From a virus, in IMG/VR virus record IMGVR_UViG_3300033182_000812, positions 1 to 43,702 of that record: a stretch of DNA of 43,702 nucleotides; one strand, given 5' to 3'. A program made the translations under genes and the position numbers. The first letter of the stretch is position 1, and every line of letters starts with the position of its first letter. The notes under the pieces are model-generated. The model made no database searches and was not told the origin of the DNA. It worked only from the letters and a program-made list of their open reading frames with translations. Of the stretch, positions 4,015 through 24,900 are shown one piece after another.

Positions 4015-4099
4015 GGAAAGGTGGTCGAGTGGTTGATGGCTCTGGTCTTGAAAACCAGCGAGGGTAACACCTCCGTGGGTTCGAATCCCACCCTTTCCG
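4015..4099 (+). tRNA. tRNA-Ser (anticodon TGA)
   Basis: An 85-nt type II tRNA. The acceptor GGAAAGG pairs with CCTTTCC (4092-4098), with discriminator G. The anticodon stem-loop is CTGGT-CTTGAAA-ACCAG, anticodon TGA. A long variable arm follows, then the T arm GTGGG-TTCGAAT-CCCAC. No CCA is encoded. It reads UCA/UCG serine codons and is the first gene behind a strong early promoter. Confidence 0.9.
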
Positions 4100-4103
4100 C
4101 TCT

Positions 4104-4137
4104 GGGGAATTATCTCAGTTGGTAGAGCGCCTGCTTT
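4104..4137 (+). pseudogene. 5' half of a split tRNA-Ala(TGC)
   Basis: These bases are nucleotides 1-34 of a tRNA: acceptor GGGGAAT, a D arm with TTGGTAGAG, anticodon stem CCTGC and loop bases TTT. The molecule breaks off after position 34. Joining it to 4670-4708 gives a perfect 73-nt tRNA-Ala with loop TTTGCAA, a GCAGG stem and the G3:U70 alanine identity pair. Position 10 is T instead of the usual G, which spoils the 10-25 pair and fits decay. Confidence 0.8.
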
Positions 4138-4153
4138 TAGAGTTAGTCCAATG

Positions 4154-4161
4154 TATAAATA
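4154..4161 (+). promoter_or_regulatory. Late promoter TATAAATA of HNH cassette 1
   Basis: TATAAATA lies 24 bases before the HNH start. It is followed by GGTCTAAC (4169-4176), the same leader octamer found ahead of the second HNH gene (23605-23612). This suggests the promoter belongs to the mobile cassette. Confidence 0.55.
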
Positions 4162-4185
4162 ATACAGAGGTCTAACATTACGATT

Positions 4186-4602
4186 ATGGCAATCGCAACT
4201 TGTAAGAGATGCTCGCAAGAGTTTTCTTATCGCCCATCACAAAAGAATGGTATTTATTGCACAAATAAGTGCCAGATGAAACATCAACAAAAGATGTATG
4301 TTGATGGTTGGTTGCGAGGTGAAAATAGTGGAGGGAATGGTTTCCAACTATCTCGACACATTCGCCATTATCTGATAGAATCCTCAGATAATAAATGCTC
4401 TCAATGTGGTTGGAGTCAAACAAATCCTCATACAGGAAATGTGCCACTTCAAATAGACCACATTGATGGCGACCCCCATAATCACGCTGTCAATAACTTA
4501 CGAGTCCTATGTCCTAACTGCCATTCTTTGACTTCTACTTATGGGATTCACGGTAAGGGTAGGAAAGGAAGAAGAGCACTCCTAATGTCAACGGGGAATT
4601 AG
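4186..4602 (+). CDS. HNH homing endonuclease, tRNA-associated (copy 1)
   Basis: A 138-aa protein. An N-terminal zinc-finger-like part (C7-C10, then GIYCTNKC near 24-31) precedes an HNH nuclease core: CSQCGW, the catalytic region QIDHIDGD, N-N-L, and CPNCHSL. It is paralogous to the gene at 23617. The last three sense codons and the stop are the first ten bases of the following tRNA-Ala: TAG 4600-4602 is tRNA position 8-10. The cassette lies inside a split tRNA-Ala. It probably cuts cognate tRNA genes lacking the insert, as free-standing homing nucleases do; the target is inferred. Confidence 0.88.
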   Translation: MAIATCKRCSQEFSYRPSQKNGIYCTNKCQMKHQQKMYVDGWLRGENSGGNGFQLSRHIRHYLIESSDNKCSQCGWSQTNPHTGNVPLQIDHIDGDPHNHAVNNLRVLCPNCHSLTSTYGIHGKGRKGRRALLMSTGN

Positions 4603-4663
4603 TTTAGTGGTAAAACGGGTGCTTTGCAAGCATCAGTCACCAGTTCGACTCTGGTATTCTCCA
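4593..4663 (+). tRNA. tRNA-Ala (anticodon TGC), intact copy within the insertion
   Basis: A 71-nt tRNA. The acceptor GGGGAAT pairs with ATTCTCC (4656-4662), including G3:U70, the alanine identity pair. The D stem is GTTT/AAAC. The anticodon arm is GGTGC-TTTGCAA-GCATC, anticodon TGC. The T arm is ACCAG-TTCGACT-CTGGT, with discriminator A. Its first ten bases also encode the C-terminal end and stop of the HNH gene. It probably replaces the function of the split tRNA-Ala. Confidence 0.88.
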
Positions 4664-4714
4664 TAGACAGCAAGCAGGATGTCAGCGGTTCAAGTCCGCT
4701 ATTCTCCATAGACA
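4655..4714 (+). repeat. 15-bp direct repeat flanking the 3' tRNA-Ala half
   Basis: TATTCTCCATAGACA occurs at 4655-4669 (3' end of the intact tRNA-Ala plus trailer) and again at 4700-4714 (3' end of the split tRNA-Ala plus trailer). The repeats could record the recombination that placed the replacement tRNA inside the old one. Confidence 0.8.
4670..4708 (+). pseudogene. 3' half of the split tRNA-Ala(TGC)
   Basis: Nucleotides 35-73 of a tRNA: GCAA of the anticodon loop, stem GCAGG, variable loop, T arm AGCGG-TTCAAGT-CCGCT, and acceptor ATTCTCC plus A. It is complementary in every stem to 4104-4137, from which it is separated by 532 bases. Without splicing it cannot give a functional tRNA. Confidence 0.82.
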
Positions 4715-4736
4715 ATTTTGAAACTGTCCATCAGGA

Positions 4737-4765
4737 TTGGCAGTGAACTCTCCTGATGCTATAAT
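4737..4765 (+). promoter_or_regulatory. Early sigma70-type promoter
   Basis: TTGGCA (4737-4742), a 17-base spacer and TATAAT (4760-4765), ending six bases before the start codon at 4772. The mRNA would therefore be leaderless or nearly so, unless a farther promoter is used. Confidence 0.6.
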
Positions 4766-4771
4766 GACATC

Positions 4772-5677
4772 ATGAAAAACACACACCTCTCTCATCCAGA
4801 AGACATCATCCTTGAGCAAGGTATGGATGGTGTCCGTCAGATCGTCAAGTTTTTTCGTGAGAGAAACGGTAGTCTCTCTGTGAAATGGGACGGAGCACCA
4901 GCAATTGTTTGGGGTCTTCATCCTGAGAATGGTAAGTTCTTTGTTGGTACTAAGAGTGTCTTCAATAAAGTCAAGGTGAAGGTCAACTATACTCATCATG
5001 ACATTGAAGTCAATCACGGTAACAAACCAAGAGTTGCTGCGATCTTGCACCTGTGTCTAGATAATCTTCCTAAACTTCATGGTGTTTATCAGGGAGACTT
5101 TATCGGTTTCGGTGGAACAGATACCTATACACCAAATACTATTACCTACAAGTTTCCAAGTAAGACCTATAAATCTATTGTGTTTGCGGCACATACTTCT
5201 TATACTGGCGATTCACTTAAGGAGATGTCTGCTCATTTTGATCAACCCTTTTGCATTAGCGAGAATCCATTCCGTGTTAAGTTTCTAAAGAAAGATGCAA
5301 CCTTTACCTCCCGTCGTAGTCGGATTGATTACCTTCTTGATATTGCAGATCTGGCTTGCAATTTTGTTAGATTTCCTGAAGGAAAAGAAGCAGAACAACT
5401 CAAAGTAAAGATCAATAAGTGCATCCGTGAGCAACGTGATATCTCTGAGGCAGGTATGGGTAAGCGACTTACCTATCTTTACAAACTGATCATGTATATT
5501 AAGGAATGCATCATGGAAGGCATTTCATCTGTAGAAGAAGTAGAATGTTTTATCGGAGATTCTCCGACTTCTCATGAGGGTTACGTTATGTCCAATCAGT
5601 TTGGTACGTACAAACTTGTGAATCGCCGTCAGTTTTCTTATGCCAATTTCACTGTACAAAAGCAGTGGGATAAATAG
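4772..5677 (+). CDS. Ligase-like covalent nucleotidyltransferase, putative
   Basis: A 301-aa protein containing what look like the nucleotidyltransferase motifs of the RNA/DNA ligase and capping-enzyme fold. Motif I is KWDG (about residues 39-42, Lys as nucleotide acceptor), motif III-like YQGDFIGF is near 108-115, motif IV-like HEGYVM is near 268-273, and motif V-like KLVNRRQF follows. No separate DNA-binding domain is visible and the length is close to small RNA ligases. It directly follows the tRNA-Ala/HNH locus and precedes an adenylyltransferase gene, so a role in RNA repair is possible. Motif spacing is read by eye; the true substrate is unknown. Confidence 0.6.
   Translation: MKNTHLSHPEDIILEQGMDGVRQIVKFFRERNGSLSVKWDGAPAIVWGLHPENGKFFVGTKSVFNKVKVKVNYTHHDIEVNHGNKPRVAAILHLCLDNLPKLHGVYQGDFIGFGGTDTYTPNTITYKFPSKTYKSIVFAAHTSYTGDSLKEMSAHFDQPFCISENPFRVKFLKKDATFTSRRSRIDYLLDIADLACNFVRFPEGKEAEQLKVKINKCIREQRDISEAGMGKRLTYLYKLIMYIKECIMEGISSVEEVECFIGDSPTSHEGYVMSNQFGTYKLVNRRQFSYANFTVQKQWDK
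5669..5676 (+). promoter_or_regulatory. Late promoter-like GATAAATA overlapping a stop codon
   Basis: GATAAATA overlaps the last sense codons and the TAG stop of the ligase-like gene. It lies 37 bases before the start at 5714, placing the downstream gene under late control. Confidence 0.45.
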
Positions 5678-5713: not shown

Positions 5714-6907
5714 ATGAAGAATTTCAAGCAGTTTGTTACGGAAGCTGTAGAAACTTCTGCTTCAATGCAGGCGAAGAACATGGGTCTCACTGGAGACGGT
5801 CATGGTGACTGGTATGATGCTCAGGGTAAACTTGTAGCAAAAACTGTAAGTGGTAAGTTGCATGTCTTTAGTGGTAGTCAAGCACCTAAAGCAACTGAGA
5901 CTCAGCAGACTCAGAAGAAAGTTCAGTCACAACCAAAGCAAACTGCAAAGAAACCAGAGCAAGAAACAGTAAAGTCTGAAGGTCTTGTGGTTGTCTTTGG
6001 TCGTTTCAATCCCCCAACTGTGGGTCATGAGAAACTCCTAAACGCTGCTGCAAGGGAAGCAAAGAGAACTAACTTTGAACTGAAAGTCTATCCAAGTAGA
6101 ACTCAGGACAAGAAAAAGAATCCACTGGATCCTAAGACTAAGATCAATTTCATGAAGCAAATGTTCCCAGATTATGAGGAACAGATTCAGGATGATGCTG
6201 GTTCTAAAACCATCTTTGATGTTTTGACCAGTGCATATAATGCTGGTTATAAGAATGTGAGCATCATGGTGGGACAGGATCGTCTTGCTGAATTCCAAGG
6301 TCTTGCTCAGAAATACAATGGTTCTGAGATGTATAACTTTGAGAATATCATTGTTCTCTCTGGTGGTACTCGTGACCCTGATGCAGATGATGTCTCTGGA
6401 ATGTCTGCATCAAAACTGAGGTCTTATGCTGCAAGTGGTGACTACAGTGCATTTGCTCGTGGTGTTCCTAACACTCTGAAGATGATGCAAAAGCGTGAAC
6501 TGTTCAATACGGTTCGCAAGGCAATGAACATTAAAGAGGAATCAGAACTGTGGCAGATTGCTCCAAAGTTTGATCCAGAAGCATTGCGTGAGTCTTATGT
6601 TAATGGAGAAATTTTCAACATCGGTGATATCGTTGAAAACCTCAACACTGGACTTGTCGGCAAGGTTACTCGTAGAGGAACAAACTATATTATTTGTGTG
6701 ACTGAGAATGGTATTATGTTTAAGTCTTGGTTGAGAGATCTTAAGGAATACACTGAAGTCAAGATGGATAAACTGATGCGTGACAAAACCCATCCAAACA
6801 CTCTTGTTGGCACAAAAGGATTCTTCAACTACGTTGCTAAGATGACTCCTAGTGCATTAAAAGTCAATAAGAGATATATTGTCAAAGGTGGGAAAGCGTA
6901 TAAATAA
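5714..6907 (+). CDS. NMN adenylyltransferase-like nucleotidyltransferase with capsid-targeting-type leader
   Basis: A 397-aa protein. Residues 1-13 (MKNFKQFVTEAVE) resemble the T4 internal-protein leader; V-T-E could be a protease site. A Gln/Lys-rich linker (55-88) leads to a cytidylyltransferase-like domain with GRFNPPTVGH (96-105, the HxGH-type nucleotide-binding motif) and SGMSASKLR (about 228-236, equivalent to the ISSTxxR motif). A basic C-terminal domain of about 130 aa follows. By family, it would adenylylate a nicotinamide mononucleotide-like substrate, as in NAD salvage. The leader suggests it could be packaged. Late promoters lie before it and at its stop. Confidence 0.72.
   Translation: MKNFKQFVTEAVETSASMQAKNMGLTGDGHGDWYDAQGKLVAKTVSGKLHVFSGSQAPKATETQQTQKKVQSQPKQTAKKPEQETVKSEGLVVVFGRFNPPTVGHEKLLNAAAREAKRTNFELKVYPSRTQDKKKNPLDPKTKINFMKQMFPDYEEQIQDDAGSKTIFDVLTSAYNAGYKNVSIMVGQDRLAEFQGLAQKYNGSEMYNFENIIVLSGGTRDPDADDVSGMSASKLRSYAASGDYSAFARGVPNTLKMMQKRELFNTVRKAMNIKEESELWQIAPKFDPEALRESYVNGEIFNIGDIVENLNTGLVGKVTRRGTNYIICVTENGIMFKSWLRDLKEYTEVKMDKLMRDKTHPNTLVGTKGFFNYVAKMTPSALKVNKRYIVKGGKAYK
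6899..6906 (+). promoter_or_regulatory. Late promoter TATAAATA
   Basis: TATAAATA overlaps the final Tyr-Lys codons and the TAA of the preceding gene, 28 bases before the start at 6935. Confidence 0.6.
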
Positions 6908-17294: not shown

Positions 17295-17453
17295 ATGAAA
17301 CCAACACCCAGAGAGATTAAAGAAGCAAAAGAGTATTATGAGAAGGTAGTTGAACACCTGATCTCAGAGGGTTATACAAAGGACAGAGAGGGTGCTGAGA
17401 ACATTATTAGTGGGATGAGTGAGGAATGGTACAGTTTGATTATTCAAGGGTGA
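17295..17453 (+). CDS. Small late protein made of one EGF/Y module, 52 aa
   Basis: MKPTPREIKEAKEYYEKVVEHLISEGYTKD... The whole protein is a single copy of the helical module (xxYLIxEGFAxDxxGA...SxEWxxxI) found also near 1450-1590, 1745-1860 and 26290-26400. It ends at TGA 17451-17453. The module's function is unknown; recurrence in late genes suggests an assembly or targeting role. Confidence 0.6.
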   Translation: MKPTPREIKEAKEYYEKVVEHLISEGYTKDREGAENIISGMSEEWYSLIIQG

Positions 17454-17643
17454 TTGTAGGGGCATTTGGGACCTACTTGACACCTGTCAAAAATGCGGTT
17501 ATAATAGACACGTTGAAATCGCTCACATAAGGGGCATTTCAACTTTTGAAGGAGACACTTTAATAAGTGTTATAAATTCAAAAGAAAACCTAATGGCGTT
17601 ATGTCCTAATTGCCATTGGGAATTTGATAACTTGGGCAAGTAG
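17440..17643 (+). pseudogene. Truncated HNH endonuclease ending at tRNA-Arg position 10
   Basis: A 67-codon open frame with no start codon encodes the C-terminal half of an HNH nuclease: CQKCGYNRHVEIAHI, then LMALCPNCHWEFDNLGK. Both Cys pairs and the H-I of the HNH core are present, but the N-terminal half is lost. Its TAG stop (17641-17643) is exactly nucleotides 8-10 of the tRNA-Arg, as in the two intact HNH genes. A promoter for the tRNA lies inside it. It is probably a decayed cassette. Confidence 0.7.
17477..17505 (+). promoter_or_regulatory. Early promoter inside the HNH remnant
   Basis: TTGACA (17477-17482), 17 bases, TATAAT (17500-17505). It would transcribe the remaining HNH codons and then tRNA-Arg. 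Confidence 0.75.
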
Positions 17644-23474: not shown

Positions 23475-23562
23475 GCGAGTGAGACTTGGTAGTCAGAGAG
23501 GTTTTATAAACCTTTTCCGCCAGATTAGCGGCTTTGAGGTGGTTCAAATCCACCCACTCGTA
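23475..23562 (+). tRNA. Aberrant type II tRNA (anticodon unclear)
   Basis: 88 nt. The acceptor GCGAGTG pairs with CACTCGT (G:U end pair), discriminator A. The T arm GGTGG-TTCAAAT-CCACC is perfect. The long variable arm CCGC-CAGATTA-GCGG indicates Leu, Ser or Tyr class. The D arm is very short (GACT-TGGT-AGTC) and T8 is missing. The standard anticodon fold GAGGT-TTTATAA-ACCTT reads TAT, which does not fit a type II tRNA. It may be a diverged leucine tRNA or a decayed one. Confidence 0.55.
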
Positions 23563-23616: not shown

Positions 23617-24036
23617 ATGCAAAGGCAATGTAAAAACTGCAATAAAACTTTTAACTTTTTTCCTTCTCAGGGAAAAGGAATTTATTGTTCAAACAAGTGT
23701 CAGCAAGAAGACTACTATAAACAAAACATAACCGATTGGTTATCTAAAAAAATAACAGGAAAACAAAAAGATGGAAGACCAAGTGATTTTGTAAGAAAGT
23801 ATCTTCTTGAGGAAACAGGACATAAATGTTCTGAGTGTGGTTGGGGAGAACCAAATCCAGTTAATGGAATTGTTTACTTGGAAATAGATCATATTGATGG
23901 TTCCAGAGAAAATGGATATAGAGAAAATTTAAGAGTTCTCTGTCCAAACTGTCATACTTTAACTGATACTTATAAGACTTTAAATAAAAAAGTGGGGTAT
24001 CATAAACAAAGAAGGCAACTAAACGAGCAGGTTTAG
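23617..24036 (+). CDS. HNH homing endonuclease, tRNA-associated (copy 2)
   Basis: A 139-aa paralogue of the gene at 4186. The N-terminal zinc-finger-like part has CKNCNKTFNFFPSQGKGIYC and SNKC. The HNH core is CSECGW, LEIDHIDGS, ENLRVLCPNCHTL. The C-terminus is basic. Stop TAG 24034-24036 is exactly tRNA nucleotides 8-10 of the following tRNA. The leader octamer and late box match copy 1. The upstream neighbour is a complete though odd tRNA, so no split tRNA is seen at this locus. Confidence 0.88.
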   Translation: MQRQCKNCNKTFNFFPSQGKGIYCSNKCQQEDYYKQNITDWLSKKITGKQKDGRPSDFVRKYLLEETGHKCSECGWGEPNPVNGIVYLEIDHIDGSRENGYRENLRVLCPNCHTLTDTYKTLNKKVGYHKQRRQLNEQV

Positions 24037-24100
24037 CAATCTGGTTGAATGCTCCGTTCTCATAAAGCGGCTAAGAAGGGTTCAATTCCCTTAACCTGCA
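24027..24100 (+). tRNA. tRNA with anticodon CAT (Met or lysidine-type Ile)
   Basis: A 74-nt tRNA. The acceptor GCAGGTT pairs with AACCTGC, discriminator A. The anticodon arm is CCGTT-CTCATAA-AGCGG, anticodon CAT. The T arm is AAGGG-TTCAATT-CCCTT. Initiator features are absent, since the acceptor end is fully paired. Elongator Met and Ile(AUA, after lysidine modification) cannot be separated by eye. Its first ten bases overlap the HNH coding end. Confidence 0.85.
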
Positions 24101-24676: not shown

Positions 24677-24900
24677 AAACCCTGGTGGAGTCATCCCTAA
24701 TAAATGCCCGTCACGGATGGACGAAAACAGCACTGGTCGGTGAAGGATCCCCTTCAATCCCGAGTCTTGGAATGACTTAAATCTTACCCTGGTGTGGATG
24801 GGGAAACCCCGCCCAGTTTCTTGCTTCTGGTTAAAGAGCAAGTGGCGAGCACTGGAGAGCGCAACTCCCACCCCTTGACCTAGGGGGATTTATATGTTAC
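24677..24900 (+). ncRNA. Gene-free, hairpin-rich stretch: candidate structured RNA
   Basis: No convincing reading frame lies on the + strand; a minus-strand frame here lacks any support. The stretch is less AT-rich than its surroundings and has several local stems: GAAGG-ATCC-CCTTC, GGGG-AAA-CCCC and TTGCT...AGCAA. GTCATCC near the start can pair either with GGATGGAC about 25 bases on or with GGAATGACTT about 75 bases on, so two alternative folds are possible. I do not recognise a known RNA family. It could be a phage non-coding RNA or the leader of the downstream gene. Confidence 0.35.

Follow-up and report, generated by a model that had tools for sequence, protein, structure and literature searches.

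What happened to a tRNA-Ala gene that is broken in the middle of its anticodon, with an HNH endonuclease gene and another tRNA-Ala gene lying in the gap? The locus is in IMG/VR virus record IMGVR_UViG_3300033182_000812, of which positions 1 to 43,702 were analysed (the window, in what follows); the source virus is a T4-like cyanophage whose closest records are Kyanoviridae. Homing genes in functional genes normally hide in an intron or an intein, or sit harmlessly beside the gene. We propose that bases 4138-4669 of the window are probably a mobile homing cassette, one that disrupts a tRNA gene and comes with a substitute for it. A preliminary description of the locus had called it a self-complementing homing cassette, and that phrase still gives the best reading of the sequence; cutting by the HNH protein and function of the replacement tRNA are what we infer.

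A tRNA-Ala gene split within the anticodon

When bases 4104-4137 and 4670-4708 are joined, ARAGORN finds a 73-nt tRNA-Ala(TGC) with a complete 7-bp acceptor stem, the G3:U70 pair included, which bears out the split tRNA-Ala(UGC) of the preliminary description. All 42,702 possible 532-bp deletions of the window were tried, counting a tRNA only if no intact tRNA gene was reused, and a new junction-spanning tRNA arose only at 4134-4150, with the correct anticodon from position 4137. The contents claimed for the 532-base insert, a late promoter, an HNH gene and a second intact tRNA-Ala, are all present: a 48-nt leader with TATAAATA is followed by the HNH gene, by the divergent second tRNA-Ala (tRNA2) and by the six bases TAGACA. 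The TAG stop codon of the HNH gene forms positions 8-10 of tRNA2. A search of 4050-4780 with Rfam returned no intron family, and in the insert only tRNA2 scored above threshold; all but 54 nt of the insert is taken up by the HNH gene and tRNA2, so the earlier remark that no intron is visible holds.

What did the site look like before the insertion? The preliminary description had suggested looking for an uninterrupted tRNA-Ala gene in relatives, and the intact joined gene is present at the same locus in six contigs (L055-L060; loci are designated here by L numbers). In L055 and L056 the tRNA-Ser gene is followed by an uninterrupted tRNA-Ala with no HNH gene, and the protein of the next gene is 100% identical to that of the window. 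The blastn alignment of the window with these two contigs ends at 4137 and restarts at 4670, with neither gap nor overlap; therefore 4138-4669 was inserted cleanly, with T34 on one side and G35 on the other, exactly where the break had been placed, and the target was neither duplicated nor lost. The window and L055/L056 are thus near-identical genomes with and without the HNH gene at one site. The 5' half in the window differs from the empty site by one substitution, G10 to T (window 4113), as expected if this copy is dead.

The 15-bp repeat TATTCTCCATAGACA (4655-4669 and 4700-4714) does exist, as described, and consists of the shared acceptor end plus six bases. It had also been offered as a possible record of the event. 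Because the cassette tails of relatives (TATACA or TAAAAA) are unrepeated and the corresponding bases of the empty site read TAGGCA, we reject it as a target duplication or insertion footprint. The ends of the insertion carry no repeat, and there is no integrase, the HNH gene being the only gene in the insert besides tRNA2.

Recurrence and decay of the tRNA-Ala cassette

Does the same insertion occur elsewhere? This HNH gene is found in four more IMG/VR loci, at 88-96% identity. In L008 and L009/L010, close relatives of the whole cassette (late-promoter hairpin, HNH gene, tRNA2 and 6-nt tail) lie between T34 and G35, and the junctions are those of the window, CCTGCTTT meeting TAGAGTTAG on the left and TANANA meeting GCAAGCAGG on the right. 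The samples are different, as are the genomic surroundings and the sequences of the tRNA-Ala halves. Might the halves be parts of two unrelated tRNAs, as the preliminary description had allowed? They are not: at each of the three loci the halves join to a full tRNA-Ala with complete acceptor pairing, each pairing with its own partner, and when the L009 halves (acceptor ends GGGGTTA/TAATTCC) are mixed with those of the window or L008, the acceptor pairs fall from 7 to 4. On these sequences, we take the cassette to have entered three different tRNA-Ala genes independently, each time at the same base. The related cassettes at all the Ala loci are just as short.

Other loci hold only parts of the arrangement. 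In L011 the 3' half is gone, while the 5' half, the HNH gene and tRNA2 remain; L029, L038, L040 and L130, closely related to it (94-95% in the flank), have a solo tRNA2. In L021, L023, L024 and L025, tRNA2 is followed by TAAAAA and the 3' half, with neither the HNH gene nor the 5' half. Altogether tRNA2 is found at 37 IMG/VR places, mostly alone. The observed states fit a course of invasion then collapse, with tRNA2 finally replacing the old tRNA, the order of gain and loss being unproven. Direct repeats between the halves and tRNA2 (GGGGRATTAG and TATTCTCCA) would permit such collapse. A separate arrangement is seen in L022 (about 5898-6016), where an ordinary intact tRNA-Ala is followed by a TAAAAA tail and the 3' half of a second tRNA-Ala, without tRNA2 or the HNH gene.

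The HNH protein and its leader

The predicted protein belongs with the PHROG HNH families (best E 1.1e-20) and has conserved CxxC pairs and a DHID..N..LCPNCH motif; the family search gave no GIY-YIG match. The AlphaFold2 model has a predicted local distance difference test score (pLDDT) of 88, and its nearest folds, weak matches at E 5e-3 to 3e-2, are the HNH domains of ScoMcrA, EcoKMcrA and PacI. The ribosome-binding site is not obvious, the candidate AGAGG lying 15 nt from the ATG.

The leader RNA (4138-4200) folds into a hairpin of -15.2 kcal/mol (z -3.6), which forms only in read-through RNA and is impossible in a transcript that starts near 4167. The TATAAATA motif recurs in the leaders of many relatives. 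An arrangement of hairpin plus late promoter has been described for I-TevI, SegB and Aeh1 MobE in a review of T4 (PMC2988022). By analogy with those genes, translational control by the leader hairpin is likely here, though no more than likely, since the ribosome-binding site is not obvious.

A family of tRNA-associated HNH genes

Is the association with a tRNA peculiar to this cassette? A profile search for relatives of the HNH protein gave 80 phage loci. A tRNA on the same strand starts between -45 and +30 of the HNH stop at 51 of them, versus 54 of 239 other open reading frames in the same DNA. At many loci the HNH stop lies inside the tRNA, most often at U8-A9-G10 (the window's first and second cassettes, RN05-S, PEi26, L143, L146, L164, L167, L193, L200 and L211), the remaining in-tRNA stops being a D-loop UAG or an anticodon-loop UAA. 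The tRNA isotype follows the HNH phylogeny: the tree needs 16 isotype changes versus a shuffled mean of 32.4, or versus 24.3 when close relatives are thinned, and in neither case did any of 2000 shuffles give a number as low. Cellular relatives, mostly from candidate phyla radiation bacteria, lie directly upstream of a tRNA in 33 of 79 cases, chiefly tRNA-Leu and tRNA-Thr. Loci L215-L294 hold tRNA-adjacent relatives in candidate phyla radiation and Clostridia genomes, again mostly at tRNA-Leu and tRNA-Thr.

Are the tRNA genes of other isotypes also broken? The leader and downstream ends of 63 loci were joined by brute force, which mostly yielded chimeras reusing intact neighbour tRNAs; candidate halves were therefore judged manually against masked tRNAs. 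In the isolate DSL-LC03, whose cassette carries tRNA-Thr(UGU), the HNH gene is preceded by a tRNA 5' half (to G35, or to T34 plus a G of the cassette) that best matches tRNA-Thr of S-SZBM1 (94%) and S-RIM8 (92%), and S-SSM5 has intact tRNA-Leu and tRNA-Thr genes at the syntenic place. Both fragments, with complementary acceptor ends, are present in L191 (Thr) and in L200 and L214 (Asp), the two Asp loci having G73 on target and rescue tRNA alike. Fragments of the 5' side occur in L143, L145 and L150 (Val) and L174 (Lys). The break position is exact for Ala only; that of Thr is compatible with 34/35.

One candidate of this kind was rejected. The flanks of RN05-S (L002 1372-1964) and RB11-B/S-B05 (L304 364-599) are 98-99% identical, and both carry the identical tRNA-Val, preceded by the HNH gene in RN05-S and by tRNA-Tyr in RB11-B/S-B05, with no broken copy. 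RN05-S is not a seamless swap of HNH gene and tRNA-Val relative to the window; because near-identical relatives have the same tRNA-Val without the HNH gene, it shows presence and absence of the HNH gene only.

Relatives of the HNH gene also lie in or near tRNA-Thr genes of L225, L229 and L231 that ARAGORN reads as having an intron at position 37, and the relatives at tRNA-Thr genes of L179 and L231 are accompanied by intron-like 3' sequence. L231 and L179 (also L225 and L229) are possibly an intron-borne counterpart of the same lineage. Rfam gave no group I intron match in L158, L159, L179 or L231.

Two further members of the family lie in the window itself (Table 1). The second HNH gene is 48% identical to the first over the matched part and has a leader with TATAAATA. 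The third is a remnant (PHROG HNH E 1.6e-4; 63% identity over 49 aa to Erwinia phage Ep030), apparently of a decayed third HNH-tRNA unit. Upstream of the second, at 23475-23562, ARAGORN reads a tRNA Ile(UAU) with a long, class-II-like variable arm that scores below the Rfam gathering score, and genes resembling it precede the HNH-tRNA-Met units of L162 and L164. In Edwardsiella phage PEi26 (L005 1353-1480) more pieces resembling tRNA 3' halves follow the HNH-tRNA-Met unit. A wcaG RNA (RF01761, 72.8 bits) lies at 24760-24856 of the window.

Table 1. Features of the split tRNA-Ala locus and of the other HNH-tRNA units in the window
Feature	Position	Strand	Basis or remark
tRNA-Ser(UGA)	4015..4100	+	left flank, common to window and empty site
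Resident tRNA-Ala(UGC) 5' half, positions 1-34	4104..4137	+	intact counterpart in L055-L060
Inserted cassette, 532 bp, between T34 and G35	4138..4669	+	blastn break versus L055/L056; relatives L008, L009/L010, L011
Leader inverted repeat surrounding promoter	4142..4176	+	RNA fold
T4-type late promoter TATAAATA	4154..4161	+	sequence motif
HNH endonuclease gene, 138 aa	4186..4602	+	PHROG HNH families
tRNA2, divergent intact tRNA-Ala(UGC), proposed rescue tRNA	4593..4663	+	ARAGORN; Rfam 66.8 bits
Cassette tail TAGACA	4664..4669	+	TATACA in L008, TAAAAA in L009
Resident tRNA-Ala 3' half, positions 35-73	4670..4708	+	joins 5' half
Right-flank gene, PHROG 455	4772..5677	+	protein 100% identical in empty-site contigs
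Third HNH gene, start-less remnant	17440..17643	+	stop = tRNA-Arg(UCU) positions 8-10
Second HNH gene, same family	23617..24036	+	stop = tRNA-Met positions 8-10
tRNA-Met(CAU) of second cassette	24027..24100	+	overlapped by second HNH gene

How the cassette might move

A scenario for the spread of the cassette is as follows. The HNH protein would be made late in infection from the TATAAATA promoter, the leader hairpin silencing read-through transcripts, and would cut the uninterrupted tRNA-Ala gene of a co-infecting phage in the anticodon arm, between CCTGCTTT and GCAAGCAGG. Repair of the double-strand break from the cassette-bearing copy, by way of the flanking tRNA halves, would then copy the whole cassette between T34 and G35, so that the recognition site is destroyed and the resident tRNA with it. 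Complete and divergent in sequence, tRNA2 would restore tRNA-Ala and would itself stay uncut; the lack of any intron or intein that could be spliced out may be why the cassette carries a complete tRNA. We infer cleavage by the HNH protein, repair-driven copying, the use of tRNA2 and the timing; at the sequence level the proposal is backed by the exact insertion, the presence of closely related cassettes in three independent targets, the empty site, the stages of decay and the lack of an uncut target in the window.

What keeps the cassette from being cut? No copy of the 17-bp target arm CCTGCTTTGCAAGCAGG within 3 mismatches is present in the 43.7-kb window, and tRNA2 differs from the target at 4 positions, which would explain its immunity. 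The exact target occurs in one of two cyanobacterial genomes examined, within its tRNA-Ala, so that, speculatively, host tRNA genes could be cut too.

The isotype-matched family suggests a larger claim, partly tested here: that there is a natural phage class of 'home-and-rescue' elements. Its HNH branches would be specialised by isotype (Ala, Thr, Val, Met, Asp, Lys and others), each breaking the tRNA genes of rivals in the anticodon arm and carrying, fused at the 3' side and often through a U8-A9-G10 stop, a tRNA of its own isotype, recoded so that it cannot be cut. Such elements would keep phage tRNA genes under constant rewriting, and those of the host may be cut as well. We give this broader proposal an even chance.

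Weighing other explanations

Several observations weigh against a homing cassette with a rescue tRNA. For the insertions in L008 and L009, no empty site turned up in two exact-pattern scans. At about 33 of its 37 places tRNA2 stands without the HNH gene, so the HNH gene may by chance have joined up with a phage tRNA of the ordinary kind. The boundaries of the broken tRNAs in the Val and Asp relatives are not cleanly at 34/35, and in L158 and L159 the HNH gene is flanked by two tRNA fragments that are complementary, and no rescue tRNA is recognised there. Might an ordinary free-standing HNH-tRNA pair, then, have landed in tRNA-Ala by rare illegitimate recombination, or as a passenger of recombination between tRNAs, the HNH protein not cutting there and tRNA2 not being selected as a rescue? 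The wide occurrence of tRNA2 on its own would suit this account, as would the tRNA-Val of RN05-S and RB11-B/S-B05, which the HNH gene merely abuts. We think it unlikely nonetheless, given three independent insertions at the same base, a known empty site that shows no deletion or duplication, and the isotype-matched broken tRNAs at the Thr and Asp cassettes.

That the insert is what remains of a group I intron, its ribozyme lost, its HNH gene preserved and a tRNA picked up afterwards, seems much less probable still. This origin would account for the position, since group I introns are known to lie at the T34/G35 boundary in tRNA-Leu(UAA), and for the tRNA-Thr relatives read as intron-bearing, but there is no match to an intron model, and just 48 nt before and 6 nt after the coding and tRNA part. 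A working tRNA made from the two halves, whether as a split or a trans-spliced tRNA, would agree with the presence of both and with their perfect pairing when joined; the G10 to T change in the 5' half, the intact tRNA-Ala lying inside, and the loss of the 3' half in L011 and of the 5' half in L021 and L023-L025 make it highly improbable. The window is a single metagenomic contig, so that an assembly artefact, or two unrelated tRNA fragments, had to be considered. Because the samples with the same junctions differ, assembly error is excluded, and this explanation is refuted by the identical junctions in contigs of other samples together with the intact empty site at the locus. Nor do we favour an anticodon-nuclease toxin, an HNH protein that cuts RNA at 34/35, against which stands the clean DNA insertion there, which requires DNA cutting. 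A homing cassette that carries a replacement tRNA is accordingly the reading we prefer.

Comparison with known systems

How does the cassette compare with homing elements already described? A phage parallel is SegB of T4 and T6, which is encoded among tRNA genes, cuts tRNA-containing DNA and moves tRNA genes along (Brok-Volchanskaya 2008; PMC13096335; PMC2988022). As proposed here, the HNH protein would likewise be a tRNA-linked phage homing endonuclease with control by a hairpin and a late promoter, though SegB is a GIY-YIG enzyme, is intergenic, is not isotype-specific in the published survey, and is not known to interrupt a tRNA gene or to carry a rescue tRNA. In the open-access literature, subscription papers being outside the search, we found SegB and other homing genes near tRNAs, and no tRNA-interrupting homing gene with a replacement tRNA. 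With I-TevI, I-TevIII and other intron-borne HNH or GIY-YIG genes the cassette, as proposed, shares an insertion in the target that destroys the cut site, and a late promoter within a leader hairpin; unlike them it has no ribozyme, and a second copy of the gene, instead of splicing, would maintain function. Islands of the integrase type likewise insert in a tRNA gene and keep, as we propose here, the function of the tRNA. The present insertion has no integrase and no att repeat, and a full tRNA is replaced rather than its 3' end.

In its logic the cassette stands closest to synthetic home-and-rescue drives, described below, and to the WHO elements at yeast FBA1, which home without an intron or intein and make good the broken part with sequence that they carry (Coughlan et al. 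2020, PMC7282813). There too an endonuclease element lands in a gene and preserves the function of that gene, here, as proposed, by carrying the complete tRNA-Ala at 4593-4663. Replacement by WHO elements is confined to the 3' end of FBA1, and their endonuclease is intein-derived (HO-like), whereas the cassette carries a whole second tRNA gene, leaves both old halves in place and has an HNH nuclease.

If our reading is right, the cassette is a third solution in phages to the problem of homing into a functional gene: break the gene and bring a replacement. It would offer a possible explanation for the fast turnover of phage tRNA genes and the large differences between close relatives, because cutting by such elements would select altered anticodon arms. 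A single small protein and a 73-bp target would be enough to put the reading to a direct test. Synthetic cleave-and-rescue and home-and-rescue drives (PMC7951863, PMC7968924) similarly combine, in one cassette, a nuclease against a functional gene and a resistant copy of that gene; they are engineered around Cas9, and the phage cassette, aimed at a tRNA gene, would be their natural counterpart.
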